Assembly: GCF_003851545.1 (NCBI RefSeq)
Contig: NZ_BHVX01000003.1
Coordinates: forward strand, 248,001-312,000
Origin: Ralstonia sp. SET104
GTDB taxonomy: Bacteria; Pseudomonadota; Gammaproteobacteria; Burkholderiales; Burkholderiaceae
Direction: 5' to 3'
DNA: 64,000 nt
Shown: positions 20,784-41,612 of the stretch, in pieces
Numbering within the stretch: the first letter of the stretch is position 1
Layout: every line of letters starts with the position of its first letter
The notes under the pieces: model-generated
What the model was told of the DNA's origin: nothing
Seen by the model: only the letters and a program-made list of their open reading frames with translations
Database searches by the model: none
Position numbers and translations under genes: made by a program

Positions 20784-21653
20784 TTACGGCGCCACCATCG
20801 ACACGCCGTACTGCGCAAAGATGCGCTGCAACTCGCCGCTGGCGCGCAGCGCATTGAGCGCGCTCTCCAGTGCCTGCGCCAGTTCGCGCTGATCCGCCTT
20901 GACGGCCATCCCGACAGCCCAGCCACGCCCTGGCAGCAACGGCGACTGCAGCTCGGTCGCCACAAAGCGCGTGGCGGATTGGCTTTGCATCTTCAGCGCA
21001 CTTTCATACTGCGCGCGCGTCACCATTGCTGCAGCGATCTGGCCGGAGAACAGCGCACGCAAGGCCTCGTTGGCTTCCGGGTAGATCTTCACCTTGTCGC
21101 GCAGTGCACCGCCGGCGCTCGACAGCAACGCGCTTGCACCGCCCGATCCCTGCTCGGCGCCGGTGGCCTGACCGGCGAGGTCTTCGAAACGGGTCACCCC
21201 GTGGACGCGTTCGCTGTCGTAGACCAGCACATAGGCTTCGCGAAGATACGGCGCGAAGATCAGTACCTGGCCATTCTGGCGAATGAAATTCGGGTCAACG
21301 GGCACATGCAGCATCACGTCGGCCGGGCCATAGCCCAAGTAATGGCCTTTCCAGACCATGTTGCGCAGATCGCCCGACATGCCATCGTCATCTGCATCAA
21401 ACGGCAGCAGCGAGGCCGACAGCCCCATCTGCTTGCTGAGCGCGTTGGCCAGCGCAACATCAATGCCGCTGAATTGCCCGCCAGCGTTGTCGGAGAACGG
21501 CGGCAAGCCCTTGTACAGCGCGACCTTCAGGGCGCCGCTCTGGCGGATCTTCGCCATGTCGGCGTGCGCGGGCGCCGCGGTCATCAGAATGGCTGCCGTT
21601 GCAAGCAGAAAGCCAACAAGGGGGGCCGCGACCAACCGAAGACGGGCGTTCAT
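20784..21653 (-). CDS. Quinoprotein dehydrogenase-associated periplasmic substrate-binding protein (PedG/MoxJ-like)
   Basis: 289 residues from the ATG at 21653 (AGGAGA upstream). The signal peptide ends near APAHA. The mature protein starts MAKIRQSGALKVALYKGLPPFS and has the two-lobe SBP-bac-3 fold of amino-acid-type binding proteins. Located 100 bp after a PedF-like cytochrome gene and near pqq genes, it fits the family found with PQQ dehydrogenases (MoxJ/XoxJ in methylotrophs, PedG in Pseudomonas putida). In those systems the protein assists the dehydrogenase rather than an ABC transporter, and no permease or ATPase is encoded nearby here. It is probably co-transcribed with the pedF-like gene from the sigma-54 promoter at 22284-22299. 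Confidence 0.82.
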   Translation of the reverse strand: MNARLRLVAAPLVGFLLATAAILMTAAPAHADMAKIRQSGALKVALYKGLPPFSDNAGGQFSGIDVALANALSKQMGLSASLLPFDADDDGMSGDLRNMVWKGHYLGYGPADVMLHVPVDPNFIRQNGQVLIFAPYLREAYVLVYDSERVHGVTRFEDLAGQATGAEQGSGGASALLSSAGGALRDKVKIYPEANEALRALFSGQIAAAMVTRAQYESALKMQSQSATRFVATELQSPLLPGRGWAVGMAVKADQRELAQALESALNALRASGELQRIFAQYGVSMVAP

Positions 21654-21753
21654 GAGAAATCTCCTGGGGAAGAAATAGGCGAGCCGACGCAACAAGATGG
21701 CGGCATGGACGGCATCGGCCCGCCAAACGGCGAAGAGCAGCGGGCCGACCCCG

Positions 21754-22239
21754 TTAGTCCTGCACCCGGCGCGATTCGAGATAGGTCTTGATCGCCCAGA
21801 CCGCTTCCTGGGTCAGCACGCCTTCAAACGGCGGCATGTAGACACGGCCATCGCGGGTGCGGCCGTGGCGGACGGTGGCGGTAAAGTACTGCGATACCTC
21901 GCCGTAGCAGGCTTCCTTCTTCTTGGCGTCGGCCAGCGACATGCAGTCGACATCGAGCTTGCGCAGGTCGGGCGCGATCCCGCCGGAGATGGCCTCCAGC
22001 CCATGGCAGCGGGCGCAGTTCTGATTGAACGCCGATGAACCGATACGCAGCGCTTCATCGTGCGCGGGGCCCGTCCGGTATGGATTGTCCTGACGCCAAT
22101 CGGCCCCGAGTTGCGGTAAGGTGTGCGTGTCTACGGCCTGCGGTGTGACATCGCCGTGAGCAAATGCGGCTGCGGGCAATCCCCCAGCCAGAAGTGCGCA
22201 GACAGAAAGCAGCGCGAACAGGTTGCGAGGCGTTTTCAA
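21754..22239 (-). CDS. pedF: Cytochrome c550, PedF-like electron acceptor for quinoprotein dehydrogenase
   Basis: 161 residues. The signal peptide ends near AAFA and is followed by HGDVTPQAVDT, characteristic of PedF. A single heme site CARCH lies in NQNCARCHGLEAISGGIAPD, with a distal Met candidate in YMPPFEG. In P. putida this periplasmic cytochrome takes electrons from PQQ alcohol dehydrogenases. It is divergent from the AcoR-like activator, and a well-formed sigma-54 promoter sits 45 bp upstream of its start. Confidence 0.87.
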   Translation of the reverse strand: MKTPRNLFALLSVCALLAGGLPAAAFAHGDVTPQAVDTHTLPQLGADWRQDNPYRTGPAHDEALRIGSSAFNQNCARCHGLEAISGGIAPDLRKLDVDCMSLADAKKKEACYGEVSQYFTATVRHGRTRDGRVYMPPFEGVLTQEAVWAIKTYLESRRVQD

Positions 22240-22283
22240 GAGTGTCTCCTTAGTGTCGTTGAAACGATTTTTGGAGGCATTTC

Positions 22284-22299
22284 TGCAAAAGCCATACCA
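22284..22299 (-). promoter_or_regulatory. Sigma-54 (-24/-12) promoter for the pedF-like operon
   Basis: The minus strand reads TGGTATGGCTTTTGCA, matching TGGCACG-N4-TTGCW with exact GG-to-GC spacing (two mismatches outside the GG and GC). The predicted transcription start is near 22273, about 33 bases before the ATG. A sigma-54 activator gene is divergently encoded 200 bp away. Confidence 0.82.
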
Positions 22300-22385
22300 A
22301 GACGCAAACCCGCCGACAAACTTAGGAAAACCCCCAAAAGCAGCACGCAGATCGGGCGGGCGGGTTGGCGCAGGTGCTCAGGAAT

Positions 22386-22423
22386 GCAACACCCTGGCAA
22401 GCGTCTTGCTTCATGGCGCAACA
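22386..22423. promoter_or_regulatory. Candidate activator-binding elements (two GCAACA copies)
   Basis: GCAACA occurs at 22386-22391 and 22418-22423, about 116 and 148 bp upstream of the predicted pedF start. The same hexamer or its complement TGTTGC lies at a similar distance upstream of four other sigma-54 promoters in this window. The 22240-22499 gap holds nothing else recognisable apart from the sigma-54 promoter. Confidence 0.55.
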
Positions 22424-22499
22424 CTTCCGGCCCGCGCATAGACTTGCGCGATCCGGGCGACCCGCACACAGATTGCGGGCGAGGTTTAAGGAGACCACC

Positions 22500-24512
22500 A
22501 TGACCCCTCACGCGGCAGCCGACCCGCGCGCTTCCGAGAATGCCCCCGCCACGCTCGGTGACGCCCCGAACGATCAGCCCGAGCTGATCGCGCAATCACA
22601 CGAGCGCTCCAAGTCCTACGGCTTGCGGCCCTATGAGTCGCCCGACTTCTGCCCGGTACTGCACAACGAGCTGAAGACCGAGATCGAGCGCAGCCAGTCG
22701 CTGTTCACGCACGCGCTGCCCGTGATGGAGACGCTCTACAGCCAGATCGTCAACACGCAAAGCATGGTGATCCTGACGGACACCTCGGGCCTGATCCTGC
22801 ATTCGCTGGGCGACGACGATTTTCTCGCCCAGGCCAGCAAGGTGGCCCTGCAGCCGGGCGCGCTCTGGTCGGAAGCGAGCCGGGGCACCAACGCCATCGG
22901 CACAGCTTTGGCCGACGGCAAACCCACGCTCGTCCACGGCTCCGAGCACTACCTGCAGGCCAACCAGTTCCTCACCTGTTCATGTGCGCCGATCTTCGAT
23001 CCGTATGGCGCCACCGTGGGTGCACTCGACGTGACAGGTGACCACCGCGGCTTCCACAAGCACACCATGGCGCTGGTGCGGATGTCAGCGCAGATGATTG
23101 AGAACCAGTTGTTTGCCAACACGTTCCAGGACGTGGTGTGCATCCACTTCCACTCGCGGCCGGAGTTCATCGGCACGCTGGTCGAGGGCATTGCGGCCTT
23201 TACGCCGGCGGGGCGCTTCCTGTCGGCCAACCGCAGCGGCGAATTCCAGCTCGGGCTGTCGATCCGCGCGCTGCATGCGCATACCTTCTCGTCGCTCTTC
23301 GGGCTGTCGATGTCGCAACTGGTTGATCGGGAACGTGGCGCCCCTGCCGGCATCGTGCAACTGCAGTTGCCAAGCGGTGTGAAGGTGTTTGCGCGCGTTG
23401 AATGGAAGCGGCCAGCCAACCGCATGGTGGGCGGCGCACTCGGCAGCGAGTTGCCGGCCGACCGCGACATGGCACCGCGCCGGCCCTATATTGAGCCCGC
23501 CAGGCAGCCGGCCAGCCTGGAGGCGCTGGACACCGGCGACGCGCAGATCAAGACCGTCATCGGCAAGCTTCGCAAGGTCATCGGCAAAGACATTACCGTC
23601 ATGGTGCTGGGCGAAACCGGCACCGGCAAGGAGCTGCTCGCGCGCGCCATCCACGCCGACAGCCCGCGCCACGCCGGGCCATTCATCGCCGTGAATTGCG
23701 CGTCGATTCCGGAAGCGCTGATTGAATCTGAACTGTTTGGCTACGAAGAAGGCGCGTTCACCGGTGCGCGCAAGAAAGGCGGCATCGGCAAGATGGTGCT
23801 GGCCAACGGCGGCACGCTCTTCCTCGATGAGATCGGTGACATGCCGCTGCACCTGCAGGCGCGCCTGCTGCGCGCGCTGCAGGAGCGTGCGGTTTCGCCG
23901 CTGGGCAGCAACAAGCTGATCCAGGTGGATGTGGCGGTGGTGTGCGCAACGCACCGCAACATGCGCGAAATGGTGGCCGCCAACCAGTTCCGCGAAGACC
24001 TGTACTACCGCCTCAACGGCCTCGTCGTGCGGCTGCCTGCTTTGCGCGAGCGCAGCGACCTCGACGTGGTGGCCAACAAGCTGCTGCAACTCGAGCAGGC
24101 TGACGCGCCCCACATCAGCGAGCCCGTGATGCAGATGTTCCGCAGTTACCATTGGCCCGGCAATATCCGCCAGCTTGGCAACCTGTTGCGCACCGCCCGG
24201 CTGATGGCCGAAGGCGCTGCGCAGATCACCGAAGACCATCTGCCCGACGACTTTCTTGAAGACTGGCAGGCACGGCATGGCGACCAGCCCGCCTCCGGCA
24301 ATACGATGGCAGCGGCGGCACAACCCGCCATTCAAAACGTGGGTGGCGCCCAGTCAAAACGGCTGGCAGATGTAGAAAGCATGGCCATCATGGCGGCCGT
24401 GAAAGCGCACAACGGCAATATCTCGGCCGCAGCGAAGGCGCTCGGCATTTCACGCAACACGATCTACCGCAGGATCGACGAGGCCGGCGGTCTGCCCGCT
24501 GACACCGACTGA
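22500..24512 (+). CDS. AcoR-like sigma-54-dependent Fis-family activator
   Basis: 670 residues from an ATG with AAGGAGA upstream. Order of domains: N-terminal GAF-type sensor (about 75-205, with [13 protein letters not shown] and [13 protein letters not shown], typical of AcoR/AgmR-like sensors), linker, AAA+ domain with Walker A GETGTGKE near residue 370, the sigma-54 contact loop GAFTGA near residue 419 and [10 protein letters not shown] (Walker B), and a C-terminal Fis helix-turn-helix (about 625-662, [11 protein letters not shown]). It activates sigma-54 promoters in response to a small ligand, probably an alcohol or aldehyde. It is divergent from the pedF-like gene and next to pqq genes. 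Its last 63 bp overlap the 3' end of the convergent hydrolase gene. Confidence 0.92.
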
Positions 24513-25442
24513 CCACGCGGCATCACGGATGGCAGCGCCCAGCGCCCTCGCCATCTCGCCCTGCGCCAGGTGCCCGGCCGGCACCCACACCAACCGCGCT
24601 TGCGGCATCGCGGTTGATAATCGCAGCGCGTTCTCGGGCCGGCAAACCTTGTCTTCCCGCCCATGCAACAGCGTCACGGGCAACCCTCGTGCGCCGATAC
24701 GCGCAGCCGCCCGCAGCAACGCAGACTTTCCCAGCCCGGCCCGGCGATACAGGTAATGGGCCTGAAGCCGGTACTTGCGCATCAGGGCCATCTGCTGCGG
24801 CCGCGATTGGCGATGTGCCTGCGCACGCAGCCCCAACAACCGCCGCTCTGCCCGTTGCCACGCTGTGGCGATGTTCAATTTCTGAACAGTTGTACCAAGC
24901 TGCAACATGTCTGTTACAGCGAGAAGACGCCCGCGCGCTGCGGGAAAACCCTCACTCCGCCCGCCAGTGCCTCGCAAGAGATCCCGGCCGGCACCGCGCG
25001 CGTTAAACAGCGCCTGCACATCGTCGAAACCGGTCAGGAAGGTCCCGCGCAGCACCAGCGTCGATACGGCATGGGGAAAGCGATCGGCGTAGGCCAGTGC
25101 CAGCGCCGCGCCCCATGACCCGCCGACCACGCCCCAGCGTTCAATACCGAGCGTGGTGCGCAGTTGCTCAAGATCAGCCAGCAGCGCCGTTACCGTATTG
25201 CGGCGCCCCGAGCCGGCCGGGCGCGAACGCCCCGCGCCGCGCTGATCGGGCAGCACCGCGCGATGCCGCAGCGGATCAAACCATGCCGCCATGGATGGCG
25301 AACAACCGCTGCCGGGGCCACCGTGCAGCACCAGCCATGGCTCGCCGTTCTCGGGCCCGCATTGGCGCACGTGCAAGCAGTGGCCGTCTGGCGTGCGCAA
25401 GTTCAGGCGGGCGGACGCGGTTGGCCAGTCGGGTGTGGGCAT
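24450..25442 (-). CDS. Alpha/beta hydrolase, prolyl iminopeptidase-like
   Basis: 330 residues. It shows [10 protein letters not shown] (oxyanion region), [12 protein letters not shown] and the nucleophile elbow GGSWG, all hallmarks of proline iminopeptidases; a His candidate lies near the C-terminus (PAGHLAQGE). It lacks a signal peptide and is probably cytoplasmic. It is divergent from pqqA (104 bp apart) and convergent with the activator gene, overlapping its end. No pqqF-type protease is present in the window; peptidase genes are often found in pqq clusters, but a role in PqqA processing is only a possibility. An in-frame start at 25514 would add 24 residues. Confidence 0.8.
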
Positions 25443-25546
25443 GGATGTTGCCTTAATGAAGATGCGGCTGCGTTCGGCAAACCCCTGCGCCAGCCGCTGG
25501 ACAACGCAGTGCACTCACTAACTATGCCAACCCTCAAGGAGGAGAC

Positions 25547-25621
25547 ATGAACTGGACGACGCCCGCTTACACCGAACTGCGACTGGGGTTCGAGATCACC
25601 ATGTACATCGCCAACCGCTGA
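25547..25621 (+). CDS. pqqA: PqqA, PQQ precursor peptide
   Basis: 24 residues, the normal PqqA length, with the conserved core [10 protein letters not shown] at the C-terminus. Glu16 and Tyr20 are the residues cross-linked by PqqE and then cut out to form PQQ. A strong AAGGAGGAG ribosome-binding site ends three bases before the ATG. It heads pqqABCDE, with a terminator-like hairpin between it and pqqB, as expected when the precursor must be made in excess of the enzymes. Confidence 0.97.
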
Positions 25622-25654
25622 TGTTGCACGACTGAGCACGCAAGGCTCGGTAAG

Positions 25655-25684
25655 CCCGCTGGTTCTTCACGGCGGGTTTTTTTT
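25655..25684 (+). terminator. Intra-operon terminator/attenuator between pqqA and pqqB
   Basis: Stem CCCGC (25655-25659) with GCGGG (25672-25676) and a 12-base loop, followed by T8. It lies 34 bp after pqqA and 80 bp before pqqB. Partial termination here would give high pqqA transcript relative to pqqBCDE. Confidence 0.75.
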
Positions 25685-25763
25685 CGCCTCAGGATGCTTC
25701 TGGGCGCGTGCATTCCCCTGGCCGACTTCTTGCTCAATCTGCCCGACACGTTGGGCTTGCACT

Positions 25764-28791: not shown

Positions 28792-28823
28792 AAGAAAAAA
28801 GGGGCCGGACAATGTGCCGGCCC
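28790..28823 (-). terminator. Rho-independent terminator for the alcohol dehydrogenase-cytochrome c unit
   Basis: Stem GGGCCGG (28802-28808) with CCGGCCC (28817-28823) and an 8-base loop. On the minus strand it is followed by TTTTTTCTTC. It lies 27 bp past the stop of the cytochrome gene at 28850. Confidence 0.87.
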
Positions 28824-28849
28824 TCCTGCCTTGCAAACGACGTAGCCAA

Positions 28850-29182: not shown

Positions 29183-29253
29183 GTTCTGAAACTCCTTGAA
29201 GCAATGCGAGAGGCTGCGCGCCGCAAAGGGCGCGCAGCGCTCAACAACGCATG

Positions 29254-31008
29254 TCAGCTCTTATGCAGCTTGAATACCCAAACCGAACCGCCCTGCTCCA
29301 GGAAGTTCACACGCTTGGCCACTTCACCGCCCCACAGCGGCACTGCACCACCCCAGCCCGACACCACGGCCACGAACTGCTCGCCGTTGTCTTCCCATGT
29401 GACGGGGGGCGCGACGATGCCGCTACCGGTCTGGAATTCCCACAGTTCCTTGCCGGTCTTGGCGTCTGCCGCCTTCAGGTAGCCCTCGGGCGTGCCCCAG
29501 AACACCAGGCCGCCGGCAGTGGTCATCACACCGCCCCACAACGGCGCGTTGTTCTTGATCTGCCATTCCATCTTGCCGGTCTTCGGGTTGATCGCGCGCA
29601 GTGCGCCGATGTAGTCCTCATTGAGCGGCTTGATGGTGAAACCGGCACCCAGGTAGGCCGCACCCTTCTTGTAGCTGACGGGCTCGTTCCAGATGTCCAT
29701 GCCCCACTCGTTGGCGGGCACATAGAACAGGCCGGTCTGCGGGCTGTACGCCATCGGCATCTGGTTCTTGCCGCCCAGGAAGCCAGGCTCGGCAAACACC
29801 GCTTTGCCCTTCTTGTCTTCACCCGTGGCCTGGGCCGGATCGCCCGGACGGTGATCCTGTGCGTAGTTCGGGCGGCCGGTCTTAAGGTCAATGCTGGTGG
29901 CCCAGTTGACCTTCACAAACGGGAACGCGTTGAGCAGCTTGCCGGTCTTCGCGTCGTTCACGTAGAAGAAGCCGTTGCGATCGGCTTTGCCGCCCACGCG
30001 CTTGCCGTCCATGTCGAACGTCACGAACTCGTTCACGCCGTCGAAATCCCAGCCGTCGTTCGGGGTGTTCTGGTAGTGCCAGACGATCTTGCCGGTGTCC
30101 GGGTTGATGGCCAGGGTGGACGATGAATACAGGTTGTCGCCCTTGCGCAGATGGCTGTTCCACGGCCCTGGGTTGCCGGTGCCGAAGTAGACCAGGCCGG
30201 TCTGTGCGTCATACGTGCCGCCCAGCCACGTCGATGCGCCACCGGTCTTCCACGTCTCGCCGGGCCAGCTGGCGTTGAGCGTGCCGGTCATGCCGTTCTC
30301 GGTCTTGTTGCCGTCTTTGTCGTACTTGTAGCCCATGTGGCCTTCGACAGTCGGGCGCGACCAGATCAACTGGCCCGTCTTGGCGTCGCGCGCTTCCACG
30401 CGGCCAACTACGCCAAACTCGCCACCCGACACGCCGGTCAGCACCATGCCCTTCACGATCAACGGTGCAGCGGTGGTCGAATAGCCTGCGGCATAGTCTT
30501 CGATCTTCTCTTTCCAGACGATCTTGCCGGTGTCCTGATTGAGCGCGATCAGTTGCGCATCGAGCGTGGAAAAGATGACCAGGTTGTCGTAAAGCGCCGC
30601 GCCGCGGTTGACGACATCGCAACAGGGCATGATGCCTTCGGGCAGGCGCTGCTCGTATTTCCACAGCTTCTTGCCGGTCTTCAGGTCGATCGCGTAGATG
30701 CGCGAGTACGACGCGGTGACGAACATCTTGCCGTTGTAGATCAGCGGCTGGGCTTCCTGCCCGCGCTGCTTCTCACCACCAAACGAGAACGACCATGCCG
30801 GCACGAGCTGGCTGACGTTCTTCGTGTTGATCTTGGTGAGTGTCGAAAAGCGCTGCCCCTGCGTACCCATGCCCCAGGTCAGCACGTCGTTCGACGATTT
30901 CGCGTCGTTCTCGATCATGGCATCGGTGACGGGGGGCGTTGCCGCGTGCACGGCAACACTTGCAGCCGCCAAGGCAGCCGCAAGTGCAATCACTCGTAGT
31001 GTCCTCAT
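29254..31008 (-). CDS. PQQ-dependent methanol/ethanol-family alcohol dehydrogenase, lanthanide-type active site
   Basis: 584 residues with a signal peptide ending near VHAA. It is an eight-bladed quinoprotein with tryptophan-docking repeats, the vicinal disulfide Cys129-Cys130 (MPCCD), metal-ligand candidates Glu197 (GGEFG) and Asn279 (GNPGPWN), and catalytic Asp321. Two residues later is Asp323 (WDFDG). An Asp at this position is the signature proposed for lanthanide-dependent enzymes (XoxF, PedH), where calcium enzymes such as MxaF have a smaller residue. It oxidises primary alcohols to aldehydes in the periplasm and passes electrons to cytochrome c. No heme domain is fused. It has its own sigma-54 promoter at 31076-31091. 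Confidence 0.93.
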
Positions 31009-31075: not shown

Positions 31076-31091
31076 GGCAAATCCCGTGCCA
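31076..31091 (-). promoter_or_regulatory. Sigma-54 (-24/-12) promoter for the quinoprotein alcohol dehydrogenase
   Basis: The minus strand reads TGGCACGGGATTTGCC. All seven bases of TGGCACG and TTGC are present with exact spacing. The predicted start is near 31065, leaving a leader of about 56 bases. Confidence 0.88.
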
Positions 31092-31171
31092 TCGGAAAAC
31101 GCCGTGAAATCGTGGTTTCAGGCGGGTTGCAGCGTTTTGATGCGTGCCATACCGGAACACATCGCCTGTTC

Positions 31172-31233
31172 TGTTGCGAAATTGAGCAACACAAGGAGCA
31201 ACACAAAGGGCAACACGAGGCGCAACGCGATGA
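31172..31233. repeat. TGTTGC-N8-GCAACA dyad plus 12-bp tandem repeats, candidate activator sites
   Basis: A perfect dyad TGTTGC (31172-31177) and GCAACA (31186-31191) leads into four 12-bp units starting at 31186, 31198, 31210 and 31222. Each begins GCAAC; the first three begin GCAACAC. They lie about 107-168 bp upstream of the predicted dehydrogenase start, the usual range for sigma-54 enhancer sites. Confidence 0.65.
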
Positions 31234-31261: not shown

Positions 31262-31837
31262 TTACAGCGCGCGCGTGCGCCGGCGCGGCAACATGCGCTG
31301 CACGCACTGCTGTGCATCGAACCATTGGTGCTTGATTACCCCGGCAACGTGCAGCACGACCAGACAAAGCAGCAGATAGGCCGTCGTGCCGTGCACCGTG
31401 TAGAACATGTGCTGCAGTGCGTTATCAACCCACCCCCAGCGCGGCAGAGGCACGCCCCAGAAGCGCGTTCCGTATTGGTTGAATGAAGACCCGAGGTAGC
31501 CCGACAGCGGCATAACAACCATGCACATGTAGAGCAGACGATGCGTGATGCGCGCCAGCGCTGTCTCCCAGCAATGCAGCCCCGGAATCGCCGGTGGTAC
31601 AGCGCGGCGAGCGCGCACGACCAAGCGCCACGCAATCACCAATGCTGCTGTCAGGCCGAGCGATTTATGCAGATTCACCCACGCGGCCTTTCCAGGCGCG
31701 CCCTTTGCCAGGCCGCTCATGTAGTAGCCCAGCGCAAACAAACCGCATAGCAACAAAGCGCTTGCCCAATGCAATGCAATCAGCAGGCCCGCATAGGTCG
31801 GCGCGGGGGTACGGGCGGGCCGGTCAGCGCGGCGCAT
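31262..31837 (-). CDS. Cytochrome b561-family membrane protein
   Basis: 191 residues with four hydrophobic helices. Conserved His residues are placed as in the bacterial b561 family: LHWASALLL in helix 1, HKSLGL in helix 2, THRLLY in helix 3 and VHGTTAYLL plus LHVAG in helix 4. It is a diheme membrane electron carrier, probably linking periplasmic redox proteins to the quinone pool. The start overlaps the end of the beta-propeller gene by 14 bases, so it is the last gene of the TonB receptor-propeller-b561 unit. Other in-frame starts are possible. Confidence 0.86.
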   Translation of the reverse strand: MRRADRPARTPAPTYAGLLIALHWASALLLCGLFALGYYMSGLAKGAPGKAAWVNLHKSLGLTAALVIAWRLVVRARRAVPPAIPGLHCWETALARITHRLLYMCMVVMPLSGYLGSSFNQYGTRFWGVPLPRWGWVDNALQHMFYTVHGTTAYLLLCLVVLHVAGVIKHQWFDAQQCVQRMLPRRRTRAL

Positions 31838-32888
31838 CGAGACTGCCCACCGAGGTTGGATAGGTCACCACGCCCCATGGCAGCTTGTAGCCCTGGAGCG
31901 TATCGACGACCTCGCGCTTCTGCGGGTCGATCACCTGTACGCTGTTCGAGCGGCCACAGGCCAGCAGCAGCTTCTGTGCATCGGGCGTGAAGCTGAAATG
32001 CCAGCAGCGTTTGCCGACCGGAATGGCAGCCACCGGTGCAAAGGTGCGGGCATCGAACACCTGCAATTGATCCGCACGGCTGGCGGCCACCCAGAGGTAC
32101 CGGCCTTCGCGGTCAAACGCGATGCCATAGGGGCCGCGCTCGGTCGGCACGGTCTTGACGGGCTTGAAGCCGGCATCCAGCAACAGCAGGTTGTTCGAGT
32201 TCTCCAGCGTCACAACGTACGTCTTGCCGTCTGGCGCGATCTTGATGCCGCGCGGCCGATTGCCAAACGGCGCAACATCCACCGACCGGATCTGCTTGAG
32301 CGTGGACAAGTCGTAAACGCCGACCGTGTTGTCACCCTCATTGGCCACCAGCAGCAACTTGCCGTCTGCTGAGAACTCAATGGCTTCCGTCTCGCGCGCG
32401 GCCTTGATGCGGCCGATAACGGCCCATTGCGTGAGATCGATGATGGCGACTTCGGCGGGGGCCTCATCGTCCTCGTCTTTCTGTGCCGCGGCGTTCTTGC
32501 CCGGCGGCCCGCCCGCTGACGCTGGCTCGTAGGTCACAAATGCCCGGTGGCCGTCCGGCGAAATGCGCATGAACTCGACATTCCTGCCGACTGCAATGCG
32601 TTTGCTCTGCTGGCGTGTGGCGGTGTCAACCACCGACACATCCGCGCTGCCCTGGTTGGCCGTCAGCAACCAGCGGCCATCGGGGGTGACGGCCAAACCG
32701 CGCGGGTCCTTGCCCACGGCAATCTCGGCAACGGGCTTGAGCGTGCGGGCATTCAGCACGGTCACGCCACCGCCCTGATTCGTGACATAGGCAACGGCGT
32801 CCGGCACCTCGGCAACGGCCTGGAGGGTGGACACCAAACCCACGCAGATCAACGTGGCAACCCGGGTGTAGTAACTCAATGCTTGCAT
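31824..32888 (-). CDS. PQQ-associated YVTN-type beta-propeller protein
   Basis: 354 residues with a signal peptide ending near AVAEV. The mature part is built of about seven repeats of the YncE/YVTN type (AVAYVTNQGGGVTVLN, GRWLLTANQGSADVSVVD, KLLLVANEGDNTVGVYD and others). An acidic insertion (KDEDDEAPAE) lies near residue 140. The family is recurrently found beside PQQ alcohol-oxidation genes; no enzyme activity is established. It lies 20 bp downstream of the TonB receptor gene and overlaps the b561 gene. Confidence 0.85.
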   Translation of the reverse strand: MQALSYYTRVATLICVGLVSTLQAVAEVPDAVAYVTNQGGGVTVLNARTLKPVAEIAVGKDPRGLAVTPDGRWLLTANQGSADVSVVDTATRQQSKRIAVGRNVEFMRISPDGHRAFVTYEPASAGGPPGKNAAAQKDEDDEAPAEVAIIDLTQWAVIGRIKAARETEAIEFSADGKLLLVANEGDNTVGVYDLSTLKQIRSVDVAPFGNRPRGIKIAPDGKTYVVTLENSNNLLLLDAGFKPVKTVPTERGPYGIAFDREGRYLWVAASRADQLQVFDARTFAPVAAIPVGKRCWHFSFTPDAQKLLLACGRSNSVQVIDPQKREVVDTLQGYKLPWGVVTYPTSVGSLDAPR

Positions 32889-32908
32889 GATCGTCCCTTG
32901 CTGTGGGC

Positions 32909-35509
32909 TCAGTTCGTGTCGGGGTTGGAGGCCTTGCCTCCAAACGAATACGTCAGGCCAATCCAGATTGCGCGCGGCGCCGCCGGCGTCATGAACTGCT
33001 GCGTCGTCAGCGAATAGATGCTCCTGGTGCCAGACAGGCCATATGTGGAATAGCGCTTGTTGAACAGGTTGCTGACGTAGGCCGAGATCTCGAGATGCTT
33101 CGTCGGCTTGTAGTGCACGTTCAGATTGACGAGACCGTAACCGGCCACCACCCCGTTGGGATCAGCATTGCTTTCATTGCCGTGGGCGATCTGCCTGCTG
33201 ACCAGGATCACGTTCGCGCCCATCGACAGGCTCGGGCTGAATGCGTACGACGCGCCGAGCTTGAGCGTTTTCGCAGGGATGCCGGGGATCTTGTTGCCAC
33301 TGACCACGTGCTGCCCACTGGCCGTGGTGAATGCCGACCTGTAGATCGCATCGACATAGCCAAAGTTGGCCGACAACGACCACTTGTCGATCTTCGTGCT
33401 GGCGCCCAGTTCAATGCCGCGCCGTTCGGTCTTGCCAACGTTGGCGAAATAGCCGTACGTGTTTGATGTGGCGATGAACTGGATGTCATTGCTGAGCCGC
33501 GAGTCATAGACAGACGCGCTCCAGTAGGCCGACTTGCCCAGCGTTCCACGGCTGCCGAATTCGATGGTCGTGGCCACCACGGCCTTCAGGTCAGGATCAC
33601 CATTGAAGCCTGTGGGCAATGAACATGGGCTGTTCGGGTCTGCACACGACAACTCGATCGACGTTGGTGCGCGCATCGATTCACTGTAGCTGCCAAAAAT
33701 GCCCTGCCCCCTGCCAAGGTCGTAGTTGAACCCCAAGGCCGGGTTGAACCGGTGGTAGTGGTGCGAGCCTGCAAGACCGTTGGTTTGCGGCCCTGCAACG
33801 GCCCCCGCCGGGATGCCGTTCGGGCTGGACGCCGCGCCTGAGCCGGAGTTTGCGTACCGGTAGGCGCCCACGTAGTCAGGGTTGTAGTACGACGTGCCCG
33901 AAACGTTGTCCGTCCAGGCGTAGCCGCCATCTTCGTTCAGGTACTTGTTGTTGGCCCCGCCCTGGTTGAGCGTGGTGTAGTTGAAGCTTCCGGATGCGGT
34001 CACGCTCAGCTTTTCCGTCACGCTGAACGTATCGGTGAAATAGGCACTGAAATTGTTGACGTTGGACGACAGGTTGACTGCGCCGATGACGTTGCTGCCC
34101 GTAAACGACACCGGGTTCGATGCAGACGGCGGCAGCCCATTGGCGGTGAATCCATATTGCTGATTGGGGGTCACCACCGCCTGGTAGTTGATTAACCGGG
34201 CCAGGTAGGTGGTCTGGTCATAGGTGATGCGCGAATGATCGAACGCGCCGCCGAGCGTGAACGTGTTGTTGTGCCCCGCCAACTGGCCGAAGTTAGACCA
34301 TTGCAGGGCGGTGCCTGCCGTGTCCTCATGCGTGGCGGAATCGACCACGCTGGTGTTGATGGCGTTGGTCCAGCGGCCATAGCCCAGCGCCAGCGCATTG
34401 GCATCGGTCACGGCATTCAGGGCCGTTCCATTGGGCGCCTTGTTTGCACATGTGTAGGCGGTGATGCCACCCGTCGTTGTGGTTGCCAGCGAGCCGCTAT
34501 CGTTCAAGCAGCCGTCATCCAGCCGTGCATTGCTGTTGACGTTGTGCAGACTGGCCTTGCGGTAGTAGACACTGCCGGCAAGCTGGTTGATATCGTTCAG
34601 CCAATGGCTGCCCTTCAGATTCAGCAGCGCCATCCGGTTCGAGATGGTGTCGGGCCAGGTATAGGCGGCGCTGCGGTTCGCCATCATGTCCGCCGGCAGC
34701 GACTGCGTACCGCTGAGCGATGTATCTGCAAGCGCGGCGGACAGCTCCAGCCGGGTCGCCCCCTCATTGCCATGCCACCGCGCCTTTCCGTACAACTGTT
34801 TGACCTCGGAACCGGAATGGTCACGAAAGCCGTCCTGCCGATCCACGTTGCCGGCAACAAAGTAGTCGGTGCTGTGCGCCTTGTCGACGATGCCGGTCTC
34901 GAAACTCAGGCCCTTGCGGCCGAACGACCCGCCCAGCGCCTCGATCGACGTGCCTGCATTGTCTTTTCCGTTTTTGGTGTTGACGACGAGTGCGCCGCCT
35001 AGGGTGTTGAGACCGAACATCGGGTTGGAGCCCGGCAGGATGTTGACGCTGGACATCGCGTTCATGGGAATGAGATCCCAGTTCACGATCGAGCCGAAGG
35101 GCTCGTTCATCCGCACGCCATCAAAGTAGACCGACACCCCGATGGGCACGCCCAGCAGCGAAGACACCTGAAACCCGCGGTAGTTGATGTCGTTCTGGTA
35201 CGGATTGCCCGCCCCGTTGCTGACGCTGACTTGACCAAGGTTGTCGTTCAACAGGTCTGCCAGATTCGAGCTGCGTTGCTCGCGAGCATCCTTCGCGCTC
35301 ACGCGTTGCGCGTTGGCCGGAAACTGCGACAGTGGAACACCGATGCTGTCGATCGGGGTGGAGCCCACAACCTGCGCGGCGGGCAACGCCACCGCAACGA
35401 TCTGGTCGTCGGCAAAAGCCGGCACATGCAGCCCCGCAGACGCGACTGCCAACACCACACTGCTCAGGCGGGGTGCGGCTTTGCACAAGCCGCTGGTGCT
35501 CGAATGCAC
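32909..35509 (-). CDS. TonB-dependent outer-membrane receptor
   Basis: 866 residues from a GTG at 35509 with GGAG eight bases upstream. Signal peptide, then a plug domain (about 60-180: NLADLLNDNLGQVSVSN, FDGVRMNEPFGS, MFGLNTLGGALVVNTKNGKD) and a 22-strand barrel. The C-terminus ends SFGGKASNPDTN rather than in the usual terminal aromatic residue. The ligand is unknown. In an operon with a PQQ-associated propeller protein and near a dehydrogenase with a lanthanide-type site, attractive candidates are PQQ itself (as for PqqU/YncD) or a metal chelate. No Fur box was identified. A short peptide-coding ORF precedes it. Confidence 0.87.
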   Translation of the reverse strand: MHSSTSGLCKAAPRLSSVVLAVASAGLHVPAFADDQIVAVALPAAQVVGSTPIDSIGVPLSQFPANAQRVSAKDAREQRSSNLADLLNDNLGQVSVSNGAGNPYQNDINYRGFQVSSLLGVPIGVSVYFDGVRMNEPFGSIVNWDLIPMNAMSSVNILPGSNPMFGLNTLGGALVVNTKNGKDNAGTSIEALGGSFGRKGLSFETGIVDKAHSTDYFVAGNVDRQDGFRDHSGSEVKQLYGKARWHGNEGATRLELSAALADTSLSGTQSLPADMMANRSAAYTWPDTISNRMALLNLKGSHWLNDINQLAGSVYYRKASLHNVNSNARLDDGCLNDSGSLATTTTGGITAYTCANKAPNGTALNAVTDANALALGYGRWTNAINTSVVDSATHEDTAGTALQWSNFGQLAGHNNTFTLGGAFDHSRITYDQTTYLARLINYQAVVTPNQQYGFTANGLPPSASNPVSFTGSNVIGAVNLSSNVNNFSAYFTDTFSVTEKLSVTASGSFNYTTLNQGGANNKYLNEDGGYAWTDNVSGTSYYNPDYVGAYRYANSGSGAASSPNGIPAGAVAGPQTNGLAGSHHYHRFNPALGFNYDLGRGQGIFGSYSESMRAPTSIELSCADPNSPCSLPTGFNGDPDLKAVVATTIEFGSRGTLGKSAYWSASVYDSRLSNDIQFIATSNTYGYFANVGKTERRGIELGASTKIDKWSLSANFGYVDAIYRSAFTTASGQHVVSGNKIPGIPAKTLKLGASYAFSPSLSMGANVILVSRQIAHGNESNADPNGVVAGYGLVNLNVHYKPTKHLEISAYVSNLFNKRYSTYGLSGTRSIYSLTTQQFMTPAAPRAIWIGLTYSFGGKASNPDTN

Positions 35510-35540
35510 GGCGTGTCTCCCTGATTGTTCTCGTCAGGAA

Positions 35541-35603
35541 TCAGCGGCGACGGGTAGACACCTGCCCGCGTTGCGGCAGTGCGTGTGGTTGGCGCATGGC
35601 CAT
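35541..35603 (-). CDS. Possible 20-residue leader peptide upstream of the TonB receptor gene
   Basis: An ATG at 35603, directly preceded by GAGGAGAC, opens a 20-codon frame ending at 35541, 31 bases before the TonB receptor start. The peptide is Arg/Gln/Pro-rich and ends STRRR. It has no hydrophobic segment. The good ribosome-binding site and position suggest a regulatory leader rather than a protein of its own. A second ATG two codons in is equally usable. A hairpin (CCTGCG with CGCAGG) lies upstream at about 35625-35650. Confidence 0.4.
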   Translation of the reverse strand: MAMRQPHALPQRGQVSTRRR

Positions 35604-35723
35604 GTCTCCTCTTCTCTTTTATTCGCCTGCGCGGTCTTTGCCCCGCAGGTCAGCGGCGGGCGCACGGGTGTCGATCGCCGTGTGCCCGCCGTGCTGCCTT
35701 GCCCTACACCATCAGCATCAGCA

Positions 35724-37244
<1,521 letters not shown>

Positions 37245-37310
37245 GGGTTGTCTCCTGATGTTTGAGTGATGACCTCAGCGTTGTGGTCTGCGCTGTGTCT
37301 GCTCGTCATC

Positions 37311-37326
37311 TGCAAAACCCGGGCCA
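37311..37326 (-). promoter_or_regulatory. Sigma-54 (-24/-12) promoter for exaC
   Basis: The minus strand reads TGGCCCGGGTTTTGCA, matching TGGCACG-N4-TTGCA with one mismatch and exact spacing. The predicted start is near 37300, about 56 bases before the exaC ATG. Confidence 0.85.
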
Positions 37327-37400
37327 TGCCCTGCGGCGGATGCTGCAACCCCTGGGAATCGGCTGTTCACCCCAATCGGCTTGCGAGACTGCTCCAGAAT

Positions 37401-37417
37401 GGAACAACGGGTGTTGC
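37401..37417. promoter_or_regulatory. Candidate shared activator site between exaC and the SoxYZ-like gene
   Basis: The dyad CAAC-GGGT-GTTG (37405-37416), containing TGTTGC (37412-37417), is about 114 bp upstream of the exaC start and about 90 bp upstream of the divergent SoxYZ-like gene start. One set of activator-binding sites could serve both promoters. Confidence 0.55.
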
Positions 37418-37478
37418 AAAGCTCAACGCCCCATTGCCTGAACGCCCGATGCGCGCGCACACAACCACACAGCGCGCA

Positions 37479-37494
37479 TGGCATGACTTTCGCA
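37479..37494 (+). promoter_or_regulatory. Sigma-54 (-24/-12) promoter for the SoxYZ-like carrier operon
   Basis: TGGCATGACTTTCGCA matches TGGCACG-N4-TTGCA with two mismatches (C to T at -22 side, T to C in TTGC) and exact GG-to-GC spacing. The predicted start is near 37504, 26 bases before the ATG at 37530. Confidence 0.72.
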
Positions 37495-37529
37495 ACGCCG
37501 GCCTTTTATCCGACCCCTCAAGGCACACG

Positions 37530-38306
37530 ATGAGAATGGCCCCACTCCATGCCGCCACTGCCGCGCTGGCCGTTGCGTGCCTGTCCTGGCCAGCCCGCGC
37601 TGATACCAACATCGACCCTGCGCACTCGCCGCTCTGGCCGACGATTCATCAGGAAGTCTTTGGCGCGGCACAAACCATGTTCGACAACCGCATCAGGATC
37701 ACCGGCCCAGCGTTTGCGGAAGACCCGATGCAGGTGCCGATTGCGTTTGACGCTTCAGCCATCGGCACGGTCGAGCGCATCATCGTCGTGGTGGATCGCA
37801 ACCCCATCCGCAAGGTGCTGGAGTTCGAGCCGATACGCATGCGGCCCGCGCTGTCGTTTCGCTTCAAGCTGCAGGAGGCGTCTGCGGTGCGCGTGGCAGC
37901 GCGCACGCAGGACGGCATCTGGCATGTCGGCACGTTCATGGTGGATGCCACCGGCGGCGGTTGCACGCTGCCGGGCGACACCCGCAAGAACGCCACGTGG
38001 AGCACCACGCTGAACCAGGTCGAGTCACGCGTGTTCCCCGGCTTCAATGGCGCGGGCAGCCGTATCCGCCTGCGCGTGATGCACCCGATGGACACCGGCC
38101 TGGTGGCAGGCATTCCGTCCTTCCATATCGAGCAGATCAACCTGCTCGATGCCCGGCGGCAGCCCATGCTCAGACTGGCGCTGTATGAGCCGGTGGCCGA
38201 GAACCCGATCTTCTCGTTCGACCTGGATGGCCCCGTCGAACGCGGCATCAGCGTGGCCGGCGTCGACAACAACGGCAACCGCATCCGCGCACAGGTGACA
38301 CGATGA
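37530..38306 (+). CDS. Quinoprotein dehydrogenase-associated SoxYZ-like carrier
   Basis: 258 residues with a signal peptide ending near ARA. The N-terminal half resembles SoxY and the C-terminal half (from about 165) resembles SoxZ, fused in one chain. The carrier-arm region includes the Cys-containing GGGCTLPG. Fused SoxYZ-like proteins of this type are known from PQQ dehydrogenase loci, where their task is undefined. The ATG at 37530 was chosen for the signal peptide and its position after the sigma-54 promoter. Its stop overlaps the next start (ATGA). Confidence 0.84.
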   Translation: MRMAPLHAATAALAVACLSWPARADTNIDPAHSPLWPTIHQEVFGAAQTMFDNRIRITGPAFAEDPMQVPIAFDASAIGTVERIIVVVDRNPIRKVLEFEPIRMRPALSFRFKLQEASAVRVAARTQDGIWHVGTFMVDATGGGCTLPGDTRKNATWSTTLNQVESRVFPGFNGAGSRIRLRVMHPMDTGLVAGIPSFHIEQINLLDARRQPMLRLALYEPVAENPIFSFDLDGPVERGISVAGVDNNGNRIRAQVTR

Positions 38307-39250
38307 GCTGGCTGAATCGACAGTTGGGCATCCTGACGTGTCTGGCGGCGCTGATGGCCAACGCACATGCGCAAGGCGCCGACTACCATCTCGTGCCGCG
38401 CGCCGTTGCGCCCGACGTCTGGGTGCTGGAAGGCGACAACGCAGATTTCTCCTCGCGCAACGGCTGCAACATCATCAACACCGGCTTTATTGACACCGGC
38501 GACGGTGTGCTCGTGATCAACACCGGGCCGTCGGCACTGTACGGCGAGCAGCAGCGCCAGGCCATTCGCAAGGTCACGCCTGCACCCGTGCGCTGGGTGT
38601 TCAACCTCAACCTGCACCCCGACTATTTCTTTGGCAACCAGGCTTATGCCGATGTCGGGGCACAAGCGCTGCCGGGCACCATCGCCGGTGCGCAACGCGA
38701 GGGCACCGCCTATGCCGACAATCTCTACCGTATCTGCGGCGCCTGGATGCAGAACACGGTATCGACGCCACCCAGCCAACCGTTGACGCCGGGCGCTCGC
38801 ACCATGGGGCGCCATCACATCGACCTCATCCGGCTCGAAGGGCATACAGACGACGACCTCGTGCTGGTGGACCGGACCAGCGGTGTGGTCTTCGCGGGCG
38901 GCATCGCCTTTCGGGACCGGATTCCCACCACGCCGCACGCCAATATTGCGCATTGGCTGCTCAGTCTCGATCAGCTTCAGAAGATCGTGGCCGACAGTGG
39001 CGCACGGTTGCTGATCCCCAGCCACGGCCCCGCGCTCGGCAAGGCCGATGCCATCGCGCAGACACGCCAGTACTTGTTGTGGCTCGATGCACGCCTGCGC
39101 CGCGCGGCAGGGGAAGGACGCGACCTCGCCGAGGTGATCGCGATGCCGGTCGACGCGCCATATGCACAGTGGGGCGGCATGCCCGCAGAGTACGTGCGCA
39201 ACGTGACCCGCTTCTATCCTGGCTACGAGACCGCCGCGCTGGCGCCCTGA
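38303..39250 (+). CDS. Quinoprotein-relay metallo-beta-lactamase-fold protein, degenerate metal site
   Basis: 315 residues, signal peptide ending near AHAQ. It has the metallo-beta-lactamase fold of the SoxH-related family found with quinoprotein dehydrogenases. The canonical H-x-H-x-D-H is here N103-L-H105-P-D107-Y108, so two of the usual ligands are replaced; later conserved positions include EGHTDDD and SHGP. Either the protein binds a single metal or it is non-catalytic. It is coupled to the SoxYZ-like gene by a 4-base overlap and lies one base before the next gene. Confidence 0.8.
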   Translation: MSWLNRQLGILTCLAALMANAHAQGADYHLVPRAVAPDVWVLEGDNADFSSRNGCNIINTGFIDTGDGVLVINTGPSALYGEQQRQAIRKVTPAPVRWVFNLNLHPDYFFGNQAYADVGAQALPGTIAGAQREGTAYADNLYRICGAWMQNTVSTPPSQPLTPGARTMGRHHIDLIRLEGHTDDDLVLVDRTSGVVFAGGIAFRDRIPTTPHANIAHWLLSLDQLQKIVADSGARLLIPSHGPALGKADAIAQTRQYLLWLDARLRRAAGEGRDLAEVIAMPVDAPYAQWGGMPAEYVRNVTRFYPGYETAALAP

Positions 39251-39251
39251 C

Positions 39252-40220
39252 ATGGCGCCAGACCCTGCCCGGCGCCGCTGGATGCGCATGATGCTCGCAA
39301 CCCTGATCAACCCGGCTCTGACGGTGTCTGCGGCACCCGCGCGCGTCACGCTGTTGCGCCTGCAGGACGGCCTGTACGCCGCACGCGCTGCCAATGCCGA
39401 AGCCTCACGCGCCAACGCAGGAGAAGTCGTGCCGACGCTGGTGCATGTCACGGGCAATGGCGTTCTGGTGGTCGACCCCGGGCCGCATGCGCGATGGGGC
39501 AACCGCCTGATCACGACCATCCGCCACATCACCGCCGAGCCTATCCGCTGGGTGGTCAACACACACGCACATCCCGAGCATGTGCTGGCCAATGCGGCGT
39601 TCGCACAACTGCAGCCGCGTCCGGCCTTCCTGGCGTCAGCCGCCACTGCCGACCTGATGCGCAAGCGTTGCGAAATCTGTCTGGCCCGGCTGACCGCCAT
39701 GCTCGGTGAGCGCGTCATGCACGAGACGCCAATCGTGTATCCCGAGCCCGCATTGCGCGACGGCGATTGGCTGCACACGGGCAAGACCGCGTGGCAGGTC
39801 AACATTTGCACGGCGGCACACAGCGCGTCGGACACGGTGCTGTACGCCCCGCAGCGGCGTGTGCTGTGCGTGGGCGGGCTGGCATATCGGCAGCGCGTTC
39901 CAGACCTGCAAGACGGCTCACTGGCTGGATGGCGGCAAGCGCTGCATACGCTTGCGCAATTGCCCGCCAACATCGTGGTCGGCACGGCCATCGGCACTCC
40001 GGCGCAAATGCTGCGCCCCACGCTGTCCTATCTCGACATGCTCGACAGCACGATCACGCATGCCATTGCGTCGGGTGGCGACGCCGCCCGCGCGCTCGAC
40101 TATGTGCCGGGCGACGCCTATGGCGACTGGCGCAACTTCCACCCTCGCCATGCGCTGAACGTCGGGCGCGCATGGCGCGAGCTGGAAGATCGCTGGATGC
40201 AAAGCGCGCCCGCCACCTGA
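39252..40220 (+). CDS. Second metallo-beta-lactamase-fold protein of the quinoprotein cluster
   Basis: 322 residues. A short basic start (RRRWMRMMLATLI) is followed by a hydrophobic signal segment. The metal motif is H105-A-H107-P-E109-H110, close to canonical H-x-H-x-D-H with Glu for Asp. Two cysteines (KRCEICLARL) follow near residue 140. It is encoded one base after the previous gene and is presumably part of the same transcription unit from the promoter at 37479-37494. Function is unknown beyond association with quinoprotein dehydrogenases. Confidence 0.78.
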   Translation: MAPDPARRRWMRMMLATLINPALTVSAAPARVTLLRLQDGLYAARAANAEASRANAGEVVPTLVHVTGNGVLVVDPGPHARWGNRLITTIRHITAEPIRWVVNTHAHPEHVLANAAFAQLQPRPAFLASAATADLMRKRCEICLARLTAMLGERVMHETPIVYPEPALRDGDWLHTGKTAWQVNICTAAHSASDTVLYAPQRRVLCVGGLAYRQRVPDLQDGSLAGWRQALHTLAQLPANIVVGTAIGTPAQMLRPTLSYLDMLDSTITHAIASGGDAARALDYVPGDAYGDWRNFHPRHALNVGRAWRELEDRWMQSAPAT

Positions 40221-40257
40221 TCGCCGCTGCTCCATTGCTGAACAGGCGGCGCACATG

Positions 40258-40263
40258 TGTTGC
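40258..40263. promoter_or_regulatory. Candidate activator element TGTTGC upstream of the porin promoter
   Basis: TGTTGC lies about 127 bp upstream of the predicted porin transcription start, comparable to the other sigma-54 promoters of the island. The rest of the 40221-40481 gap holds only the promoter. Confidence 0.4.
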
Positions 40264-40361
40264 ATCGATTGTCCCGCCACGCCACATCGCCCGCGCAGGC
40301 GCTGGTGTCCGCAAACGTTAATCAACGGGCTGCAACTCCGTGCAATACAACGTGAACGCCG

Positions 40362-40377
40362 TGGTACGCATATTGCA
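40362..40377 (+). promoter_or_regulatory. Sigma-54 (-24/-12) promoter for the porin gene
   Basis: TGGTACGCATATTGCA matches TGGCACG-N4-TTGCA with one mismatch and exact spacing. The predicted start is near 40388, about 94 bases before the ATG. Confidence 0.85.
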
Positions 40378-40481
40378 AAGTCCCGCCCGGCGTTGAGTGC
40401 ACCCCCGCATCCGGCGCCAACCTCAAATGCGTCCGAGCCGAATCCACGGGACGCATCACACAAAGACAATACGGAGACAAC

Positions 40482-41612
40482 ATGCAGAACCAACGCCTTC
40501 GACCCTGCGCCCTCGCAGCCTTTGCAGTCACCCTCGGTTGCGCCGCAAGTGGCGCCATCGCGCAATCGTCCGTCACGATCTACGGCACTGTCGATGCCGG
40601 GCTGCAGTATCAGAACCGGAGCGCAGCAGGCGGCAGCATTACCGAGATGCACTCGGGCGGCATCAGCCCCAGCATCTGGGGCTTCAAGGGCGTGGAAGAC
40701 CTGGGCAACGGCCTGAAGGCGAACTTCAACCTCGAGGGACACTTCAGCAGCGACACCGGAACGCTCACCACCGGCCCCGGCTTCAGCTCGGAGCTGTTCC
40801 GCCGGCAGGCGAATGTTGGCCTCAGTGGCAACTGGGGCGCCATCACGCTGGGCCGCCAGTACAGCGCGGCGCTGATCGGCACGATCGGCACGGAAGCGCG
40901 CGGCTTCAAGGAGCAGTTCTCGAACCTGTACGGTTGGGCCTACAACCAGCTCCCTGCGCCGGGCAACGCGCTGGGCGCCGGCACCAACCCTGGCAACGAC
41001 GTGGGCGTGTTCGTGGGCAACGCGCTGCAGTACGCCAACAACTTCGGCCCCGTGTGGTTGGGCGTCGCGTATTCATTTGGAGAGACGGCGGGCAGCTTCA
41101 AGCGCGGTAACGAACTCTCTCTGGGTGCCACATACACGGGCCCCGTGGTCGTCGGCCTCGGCTATCAATCAACGGCGGACAGCGGCACCGGCGAGACCCT
41201 CAGCCGCTTGTGGAGCGCAGGTGTGGCGGTGCCATTCGGCGCCTTCACGGGCAAGGTGAACTACATCGGCGTTACCAACAACGCGCCGACGGGCCAACGC
41301 GTATCGGAGGTCAAATCGATCGGCGCCGGGCTCGACTACAAGTGGAGCCCCGCCAATACGGCCACGCTGGCCGGCTACTACAGCAAGTATGAAAGCAGCG
41401 CACACGACAGCTCCACCAAATCGATCGTGCTGAGCAACGACTACGCGTTCTCCAAGCGCACCACGCTGTATGCGCAGCTTGTGTACGTGAATGCGGGCGC
41501 GGTTGGTACGGCTGATCCGCTGGAAGGTCTGAAGACCTCCATCGTTGCCGGCGGTACGGCGCCGGGCGCGAAGACGGTGCTGGCCGGTGTAGGGTTGAAG
41601 CATTCGTTCTGA
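40482..41612 (+). CDS. Burkholderiales-type trimeric porin
   Basis: 376 residues with a signal peptide ending at AIAQ. Mature start SSVTIYGTVDAGLQY and the terminal phenylalanine (LKHSF) are typical of 16-strand general porins (OmpC/Omp32 type). It has GGAGAC before the ATG, a sigma-54 promoter 105 bp upstream and a strong terminator directly after the stop. The sigma-54 control, shared with alcohol-oxidation genes, suggests it admits the alcohol, PQQ or an organic acid product. Confidence 0.92.
   Translation: MQNQRLRPCALAAFAVTLGCAASGAIAQSSVTIYGTVDAGLQYQNRSAAGGSITEMHSGGISPSIWGFKGVEDLGNGLKANFNLEGHFSSDTGTLTTGPGFSSELFRRQANVGLSGNWGAITLGRQYSAALIGTIGTEARGFKEQFSNLYGWAYNQLPAPGNALGAGTNPGNDVGVFVGNALQYANNFGPVWLGVAYSFGETAGSFKRGNELSLGATYTGPVVVGLGYQSTADSGTGETLSRLWSAGVAVPFGAFTGKVNYIGVTNNAPTGQRVSEVKSIGAGLDYKWSPANTATLAGYYSKYESSAHDSSTKSIVLSNDYAFSKRTTLYAQLVYVNAGAVGTADPLEGLKTSIVAGGTAPGAKTVLAGVGLKHSF

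Follow-up and report, generated by a model that had tools for sequence, protein, structure and literature searches.

We analysed a 64,000-nucleotide stretch of the Ralstonia sp. SET104 genome (GCF_003851545.1, contig NZ_BHVX01000003.1, positions 248,001 to 312,000; hereafter the window), of which positions 20,784 to 41,612 hold genes for alcohol oxidation dependent on pyrroloquinoline quinone (PQQ). The stretch includes the cytochrome c-550 gene pedF, a gene for a sigma-54 enhancer-binding activator, the PQQ synthesis gene pqqA, the quinoprotein alcohol dehydrogenase gene exaA, the acetaldehyde dehydrogenase gene exaC, a SoxYZ-like carrier gene (soxYZ) and a porin gene (Table 1). Sigma-54 promoters precede pedF, exaA, exaC, soxYZ and the porin gene, and a common 17-bp inverted repeat (dyad) lies upstream of each. 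These units probably form one regulon, dependent on sigma-54 and serving alcohol oxidation in the periplasm, in which the activator encoded at 22500-24512 would act on the dyads.

Sigma-54 promoters and a 17-bp inverted repeat

The promoter pattern scanned was TGGYMYRNNNNTYGC, with the reversed pattern as control. Its only matches in the window were the promoters of the five units, all with GG and GC elements at fixed spacing and near TGGCACG-N4-TTGCW; that of soxYZ was the weakest, with TCGC at -12. Five -24/-12 promoters of exact spacing, proposed in an earlier note on this DNA, were thus all present, and they were kept in the same-genus copies. The whole 4.8-Mb genome held 135 matches vs 96 with the reversed pattern, and the 20.8-kb stretch held five vs 0.59 expected (Poisson P of at least five ~4 × 10−4). 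The SET104 genome also encodes RpoN (L115, G000:C1:148173-149773), with three Pfam sigma-54 domains.

Across nine aligned loci (L001-L009; seven Ralstonia and two Burkholderiaceae) the promoter was kept at exaA in 7/7, and at exaC, soxYZ and the porin gene in 9/9 each. The closest named SoxYZ relatives were mostly from Ralstonia (87-91% identity). The exaC comparison within the genus omitted G006, where the upstream region was out of reach, and G007, which had no match. The loci L001-L009 come from the same genomes as nine of the genus set, and the distinct genomes are the 13 with the activator plus G013, so the same-genus conservation counts are not independent of one another.

At each of the five promoters the hexamer TGTTGC or its complement GCAACA begins 67-124 bp before the TGG, in agreement with the earlier placing of it 90-127 bp from the predicted start. 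By chance, a hexamer falls in the 67-124 bp range at 8.9% of random window places. At the other sigma-54-like sites of the SET104 genome (control sites, from a complete list of 56) it was no more frequent than background (3 of 55 rows, 52 of them distinct, rpoN included). In alignments of relatives the control regions show sharp footprints, the largest of which, between pedF and the activator gene, is about 55 bp long and nearly invariant. Read jointly, these footprints resolve into the inverted repeat TGYTSC-N5-GSARCA, which lies within conserved blocks in each control region and of which the hexamer is a part. A second copy accompanies it at a spacing of 32 bp at pedF, 29 bp at exaA, 22 bp at exaC/soxYZ and 42 bp at the porin gene, weaker in each case except pedF, where both are strong; exaC and soxYZ have one operator region between them. 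The hexamer TGTTGC sits inside one or other dyad except at the porin gene, where the best-conserved dyad (40228-40244) is without it and where one relative (L007) lost TGTTGC yet kept the dyad. The earlier claim of a shared TGTTGC/GCAACA element stands with the dyad as the corrected operator. Perfect dyads occur at five places in the genome (two with the reversed pattern), and the region between exaC and soxYZ has one of these. Of 51 further sigma-54-like sites in the genome, a single one had a dyad score of at least 11. A candidate operator of the form TGTTGC-N0-14-GCAACA, with 10 places in the genome (four reversed) and one at these genes, was replaced by the N5 dyad.

Upstream of exaA (31172-31225) there are three GTGTTGC units, 12 bp apart, where seven aligned relatives have a gap; they are possibly a recent expansion of half sites. 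The rpoN gene has a sigma-54-like site of its own (at 301 of L115, TGGCATACCCTTTGC). A hexamer, TGTTGC/GCAACA, lies 89 bp before it, without a dyad of score 11, which may be chance.

Table 1. Genes, sigma-54 elements and dyads of the stretch (window coordinates; dyad scores are out of 12; counts are of genomes that keep the feature)
Feature	Position	Strand	Details
Substrate-binding-protein-like gene, 3' of pedF (MoxJ-like, weak)	20784..21695	-	Pfam SBP_bac_3; TIGR03871 below cut-off
pedF, cytochrome c-550	21754..22239	-	NCBIfam TIGR04494, 213 bits (cut-off 122)
pedF sigma-54 -24/-12 element	22284..22299	-	TGGTATGGCTTTTGCA; 13/13 incl. SET104
pedF dyad site 2	22375..22391	-	TGTTGCATTCCTGAGCA; score 11; 13/13, two with one altered letter
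pedF dyad site 1	22407..22423	-	TGTTGCGCCATGAAGCA; score 11; 13/13, one with a spacer change
Sigma-54 enhancer-binding activator, 670 aa	22500..24512	+	Pfam: GAF, AAA+ (GAFTGA), Fis-type helix-turn-helix
pqqA (24 aa), ahead of pqqBCDE	25547..25621	+	No sigma-54 match upstream
exaA, quinoprotein alcohol dehydrogenase with DGWDFDG	29254..31008	-	TIGR03075; best PDB match 6zcv/6zcw
exaA sigma-54 element	31076..31091	-	TGGCACGGGATTTGCC; identical in 12/12 genus genomes incl. SET104
exaA weaker second dyad	31143..31159	-	TGTTCCGGTATGGCACG; score 10; same place in 11/12 genus genomes
exaA main dyad	31172..31188	-	TGCTCAATTTCGCAACA; score 11, 12 in 11 other genus genomes; overlaps hexamers
Cytochrome b561-type protein, end of exaC-side gene row	31262..31837	-	Pfam PF01292
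Beta-propeller protein, YncE-like among others	31824..32888	-	Pfam Lactonase top; YNCE PF21783 above cut-off
TonB-dependent receptor	32909..35509	-	Pfam
exaC, acetaldehyde dehydrogenase	35724..37244	-	NF050026, 945 bits (cut-off 900)
exaC sigma-54 element	37311..37326	-	TGGCCCGGGTTTTGCA; 14/14 readable genus genomes incl. SET104
Main dyad common to exaC and soxYZ	37390..37406		TGTTCCATTCTGGAGCA; score 12
Second dyad common to exaC and soxYZ	37412..37428		Score 10; place kept 13/14; contains TGTTGC
soxYZ sigma-54 element	37479..37494	+	TGGCATGACTTTCGCA; 9/9 relatives
SoxYZ-like quinoprotein-associated carrier	37530..38306	+	TIGR04557
Two quinoprotein-relay metallohydrolases	38303..40220	+	First: TIGR04558 above cut-off; second: TIGR04558/TIGR04559 below
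Porin main dyad	40228..40244	+	TGCTCCATTGCTGAACA; score 11; 11-12 in 9/9 relatives
Porin weaker second dyad	40270..40286	+	TGTCCCGCCACGCCACA; score 10 here and in 7/9 relatives
Porin sigma-54 element	40362..40377	+	TGGTACGCATATTGCA; 9/9 relatives, 2 with changed letters
Porin	40482..41612	+	Pfam Porin_4

Promoters and dyads in other genera

Since the motif was derived from these regions, we rested the case on tests outside the genus. For exaA, 54 of the 57 loci outside L001-L009 and L081-L093 were usable (three were dropped for a short upstream region or an unclear start); two of the test loci, L097 and L107, belong to same-genus genomes in which a separate genus search showed no exaA. A sigma-54 site lay within 220 bp upstream of exaA at 50 of these 54 loci vs 2.3% in shuffles, the four without one being L032, L037, L056 and L071 (50% identity). 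Sites were also found at exaC (10/12, one of them same-genus) and pedF (4/8) in other genera, and the corresponding counts for the comparison genes were 0/70 for the neighbouring gene mbl1, 1/13 for pqqB, 0/14 for pqqC and 5/72 for soxYZ.

A matrix built from Ralstonia sites only was applied to 50 exaA upstream regions with a sigma-54 site from other genera, and 40 of them exceeded the 95th shuffle percentile and 33 the 99th. The plain consensus reached a score of at least 11 in 13 of the 50 (1.1% per site expected). Of seven periods tried, 10.5-11 bp gave the best phasing of the dyad places to the promoter (R 0.64-0.66; P ~1 × 10−7 by sequence and 3 × 10−4 by distinct place). That the dyads belong to an unrelated regulator or are structural repeats, with the sigma-54-like sites a coincidence, is hardly credible given sigma-54 sites at nearly all exaA upstream regions and dyads phased to them. 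One dyad of score 11 (TGTTGCACGACTGAGCA, 25622-25638) does lie immediately after the pqqA stop codon, away from any sigma-54 match, and the window has five more with that score in other places.

Cupriavidus metallidurans CH34 extends the comparison to exaC. There, the activator (78% identity) adjoins exaC (93%), the sigma-54 letters of the exaC promoter are identical, and dyads of score 11 and 10 lie at -81 and -103, respectively. Conservation in other Ralstonia and Cupriavidus genomes, which the earlier note had named as support, is seen both across Ralstonia, where the promoters are kept, and in this Cupriavidus genome. No exaA match was present within the 32 kb read around the CH34 activator and exaC, which could make exaC the oldest target of the activator.

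The activator and the competing explanations

The protein encoded at 22500-24512 has the Sigma54_activat AAA+ domain, the GAFTGA motif and the Fis-type helix-turn-helix of an enhancer-binding protein. Among the matches listed in order of E-value, 12 lie in the whole genome including itself and it is the only one inside the window, in line with the earlier note. A scan of its neighbours, which took in pedF, the substrate-binding-protein-like gene and the pqq genes but neither the open reading frame at 24450-25514 nor other parts of the genome, showed no acoABC.

We compared the distribution of this activator with that of exaA in 150 genomes of the order Burkholderiales. The activator (E-value of 1 × 10−120 or better) was present in 36 genomes, among them all 13, SET104 included, that have exaA (P ~1 × 10−9, uncorrected for relatedness), and in 13/13 it lay on the same contig as exaA, within about 25 kb. 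Outside SET104, the activators of exaA genomes are 47-61% identical to that of the window and, judged by identity rather than by a tree, are likely its orthologues. The regulator linked to exaA is of GAF-AAA+-Fis type. Within the genus, all 13 genomes with the activator have a perfect dyad at exaC, in an unchanged position. The one readable genus genome without a close activator match is G013, which gives no exaA match either; there the exaC promoter is kept, the dyad is absent, and exaC adjoins a different activator (36% identity).

With 11 further activator matches in the SET104 genome, a different activator at the dyad-less exaC of G013, and a hexamer that chance alone places in range at 8.9% of places, one might suppose that the -24/-12 sites are real, that each unit has its own activator, that the hexamer is a chance occurrence and that there is no common regulon. 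The common dyad, its recovery in other genera, the phasing and the 13/13 linkage argue against separate activators and make this very improbable.

A somewhat less remote candidate, although still an unlikely one, is that a paralogue of the activator (54% identity, G000:C3:371481-373385) activates these promoters, either by itself or jointly with the activator of the window. It lies 99 kb from that activator, in a second PQQ locus (L111, G000:C3:368000-377500) whose gene row (3467-8821) also holds a divergent second pqqA (L111:5952) and genes for a GSDH-domain protein and a pqqB-like product. The promoter of the second pqqA has a sigma-54 site (TGGCATGGTGTTTGCA) and a pair of dyads built in the same way (TGTTTC-GTTGC-GGAACA; TGTTCC-GTTGC-GGATCA). 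However, among the matches listed for 16 genus genomes, 54% matches occur in SET104 and G008 only, and a 58% match in G006 is closer to the activator of the window (56%) than to the paralogue (53%), whereas the activator of the window is found in 13 genus genomes, each with the exaC dyad.

Several results weigh against a single regulon under the activator at 22500-24512. The evidence is sequence comparison, and the paralogue has similar dyads. Window places with a score of at least 10 numbered 52 vs ~54 in shuffles, so the second dyads stand on their kept position, and those with a score of at least 11 numbered 11 vs 4.6, about a twofold excess only; as the consensus was derived from these regions, the counts within the window are also circular. 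The same-genus conservation sets are largely made of the same genomes, and the matrix result in other genera partly reflects common descent. A consensus score of at least 11 was reached at only 2 of 10 exaC and 2 of 4 pedF regions in other genera, and no recognisable sigma-54 site was found at pqqABCDE in the window pattern scan. Few soxYZ genes outside Ralstonia have their own sigma-54 site, so the five-unit set appears to be a Ralstonia arrangement; the earlier proposal of one regulon is upheld by comparison for the five units, with a narrower core elsewhere. Finally, in 12 further genomes a sigma-54 site scoring at least 0.86 lay upstream of exaA in 11, and the Ralstonia matrix gave P < 0.05 in 5 only. 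Four of the seven misses belong to one clade (g23) and the rest are G091, which has no clear sigma-54 site, and G175 and G039, which are unexplained.

In clade g23 the recognition helix of the activator reads GIGRATLYR vs GISRNTIYR, and three of the four genomes have TGTCTC-N5-GAGACA as a perfect repeat about 183 bp upstream. This repeat occurs once per genome in those three, and of the five genomes compared from their genus the other two lack it. The helix and the dyad may have changed together, on an after-the-fact reading of what may be a single event.

Proposed regulation and known systems

What emerges from comparison is the set of promoters and dyads, conserved and phased, and the association of the activator with exaA and exaC; we infer from them how the activator would bind, what would induce it and how it would act. 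It would bind the TGYTSC-N5-GSARCA repeats 67-134 bp upstream of the TGG, one strong and one weaker per control region, or two strong ones at pedF. Its GAF-type sensor part would meet an inducer, for which an alcohol or the derived aldehyde is the likeliest candidate, and its AAA+ domain would then open sigma-54 RNA polymerase at pedF, exaA, exaC, soxYZ and the porin gene.

A search of the SET104 genome with ExaA gave a single match, itself. The best solved relatives, 6zcv and 6zcw, which we take to be lanthanide PedH, share its DGWDFDG, and the quinoprotein ethanol dehydrogenase 1flg, presumably the calcium enzyme (ExaA), has DAWDFSG. A second Asp two residues past the catalytic Asp (D-x-D) is a lanthanide signature of PedH and XoxF; ExaA has it, as do 59 of the 64 ExaA matches among the loci compared. 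The enzyme is probably lanthanide-dependent.

In the exaC-side row (31824-35509), the TonB-dependent receptor gene adjoins that for the YncE-like propeller; PDB matches were one weak one for the receptor and general beta-propellers for the YncE-like protein. The pair resembles what we take to be the E. coli arrangement of YncD/PqqU with YncE, and by that analogy a role in PQQ or metal uptake is possible. Two consecutive NosL-domain genes (41837-43314) adjoin the porin gene.

Parts of this arrangement have counterparts in published systems. In R. solanacearum, rpoN1 is required for growth on ethanol and an AcoR-type regulator is predicted for exaC (PMC4676750). The GMI1000 arrangement (Rsc3129, exaC Rsc3128 and RpoN1) has in common with ours sigma-54 and an AcoR-type activator beside exaC, and differs in that exaC is the target named and, in the passages concerned, no operator is given (PMC4676750). 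The G013 genome shares that arrangement (36% activator, no exaA match, no dyad), and we infer that it can stand in for R. solanacearum. As sigma-54-dependent growth on ethanol and an AcoR-type gene beside exaC have already been published, the regulon proposed here extends a known kind. BmoR of Thauera butanivorans is by description alike, an alcohol-responsive sigma-54 activator with an upstream inverted repeat (PMC6366067, PMC8899819) and of similar size (669 residues, PMC13227213, vs 670); it serves an alkane monooxygenase promoter, with its upstream activating sequence 193 bp upstream of the sigma-54 site, and the main text of that paper does not give the letters of its operator (PMC8899819). 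EtgR of Paracoccus denitrificans is likewise of the Fis family, answers to several alcohols and lies beside alcohol and aldehyde dehydrogenase genes, but these neighbouring enzymes are NAD-dependent (PMC12214560).

In Pseudomonas, PQQ alcohol dehydrogenases of the PedE/PedH kind are also under control (PMC13390443, PMC12997753), there by a hierarchy of PedR1/AgmR and the two-component PedS2/PedR2 (PMC13390443). The contrast drawn earlier with two-component LuxR-type regulation in that genus therefore applies to the main regulators; CbrB, a sigma-54-dependent response regulator, is tabulated among the Pseudomonas regulators (PMC12997753), so control there does not lack sigma-54 altogether. Among the matches listed from open-licence PMC articles, none dealt with the regulation by sigma-54 of PQQ alcohol dehydrogenases in Burkholderiales.

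For the Burkholderiales as a whole we lean, with some reserve, towards the view that the dedicated regulator of PedH-type exaA is a one-component sigma-54 activator inherited with exaA, whose operator would have co-evolved with the recognition helix (from TGTTCC-like to TGTCTC in g23), a lineage-wide alternative to the two-component lanthanide switch of Pseudomonas. For alcohol oxidation with PQQ in bacteria other than Pseudomonas, the analysis proposes an operator, an activator and a set of targets, and would link a probably lanthanide-dependent enzyme to sigma-54. It also offers a helix-operator pair for the study of site choice by Fis-type activators and, possibly, an alcohol-responsive switch.

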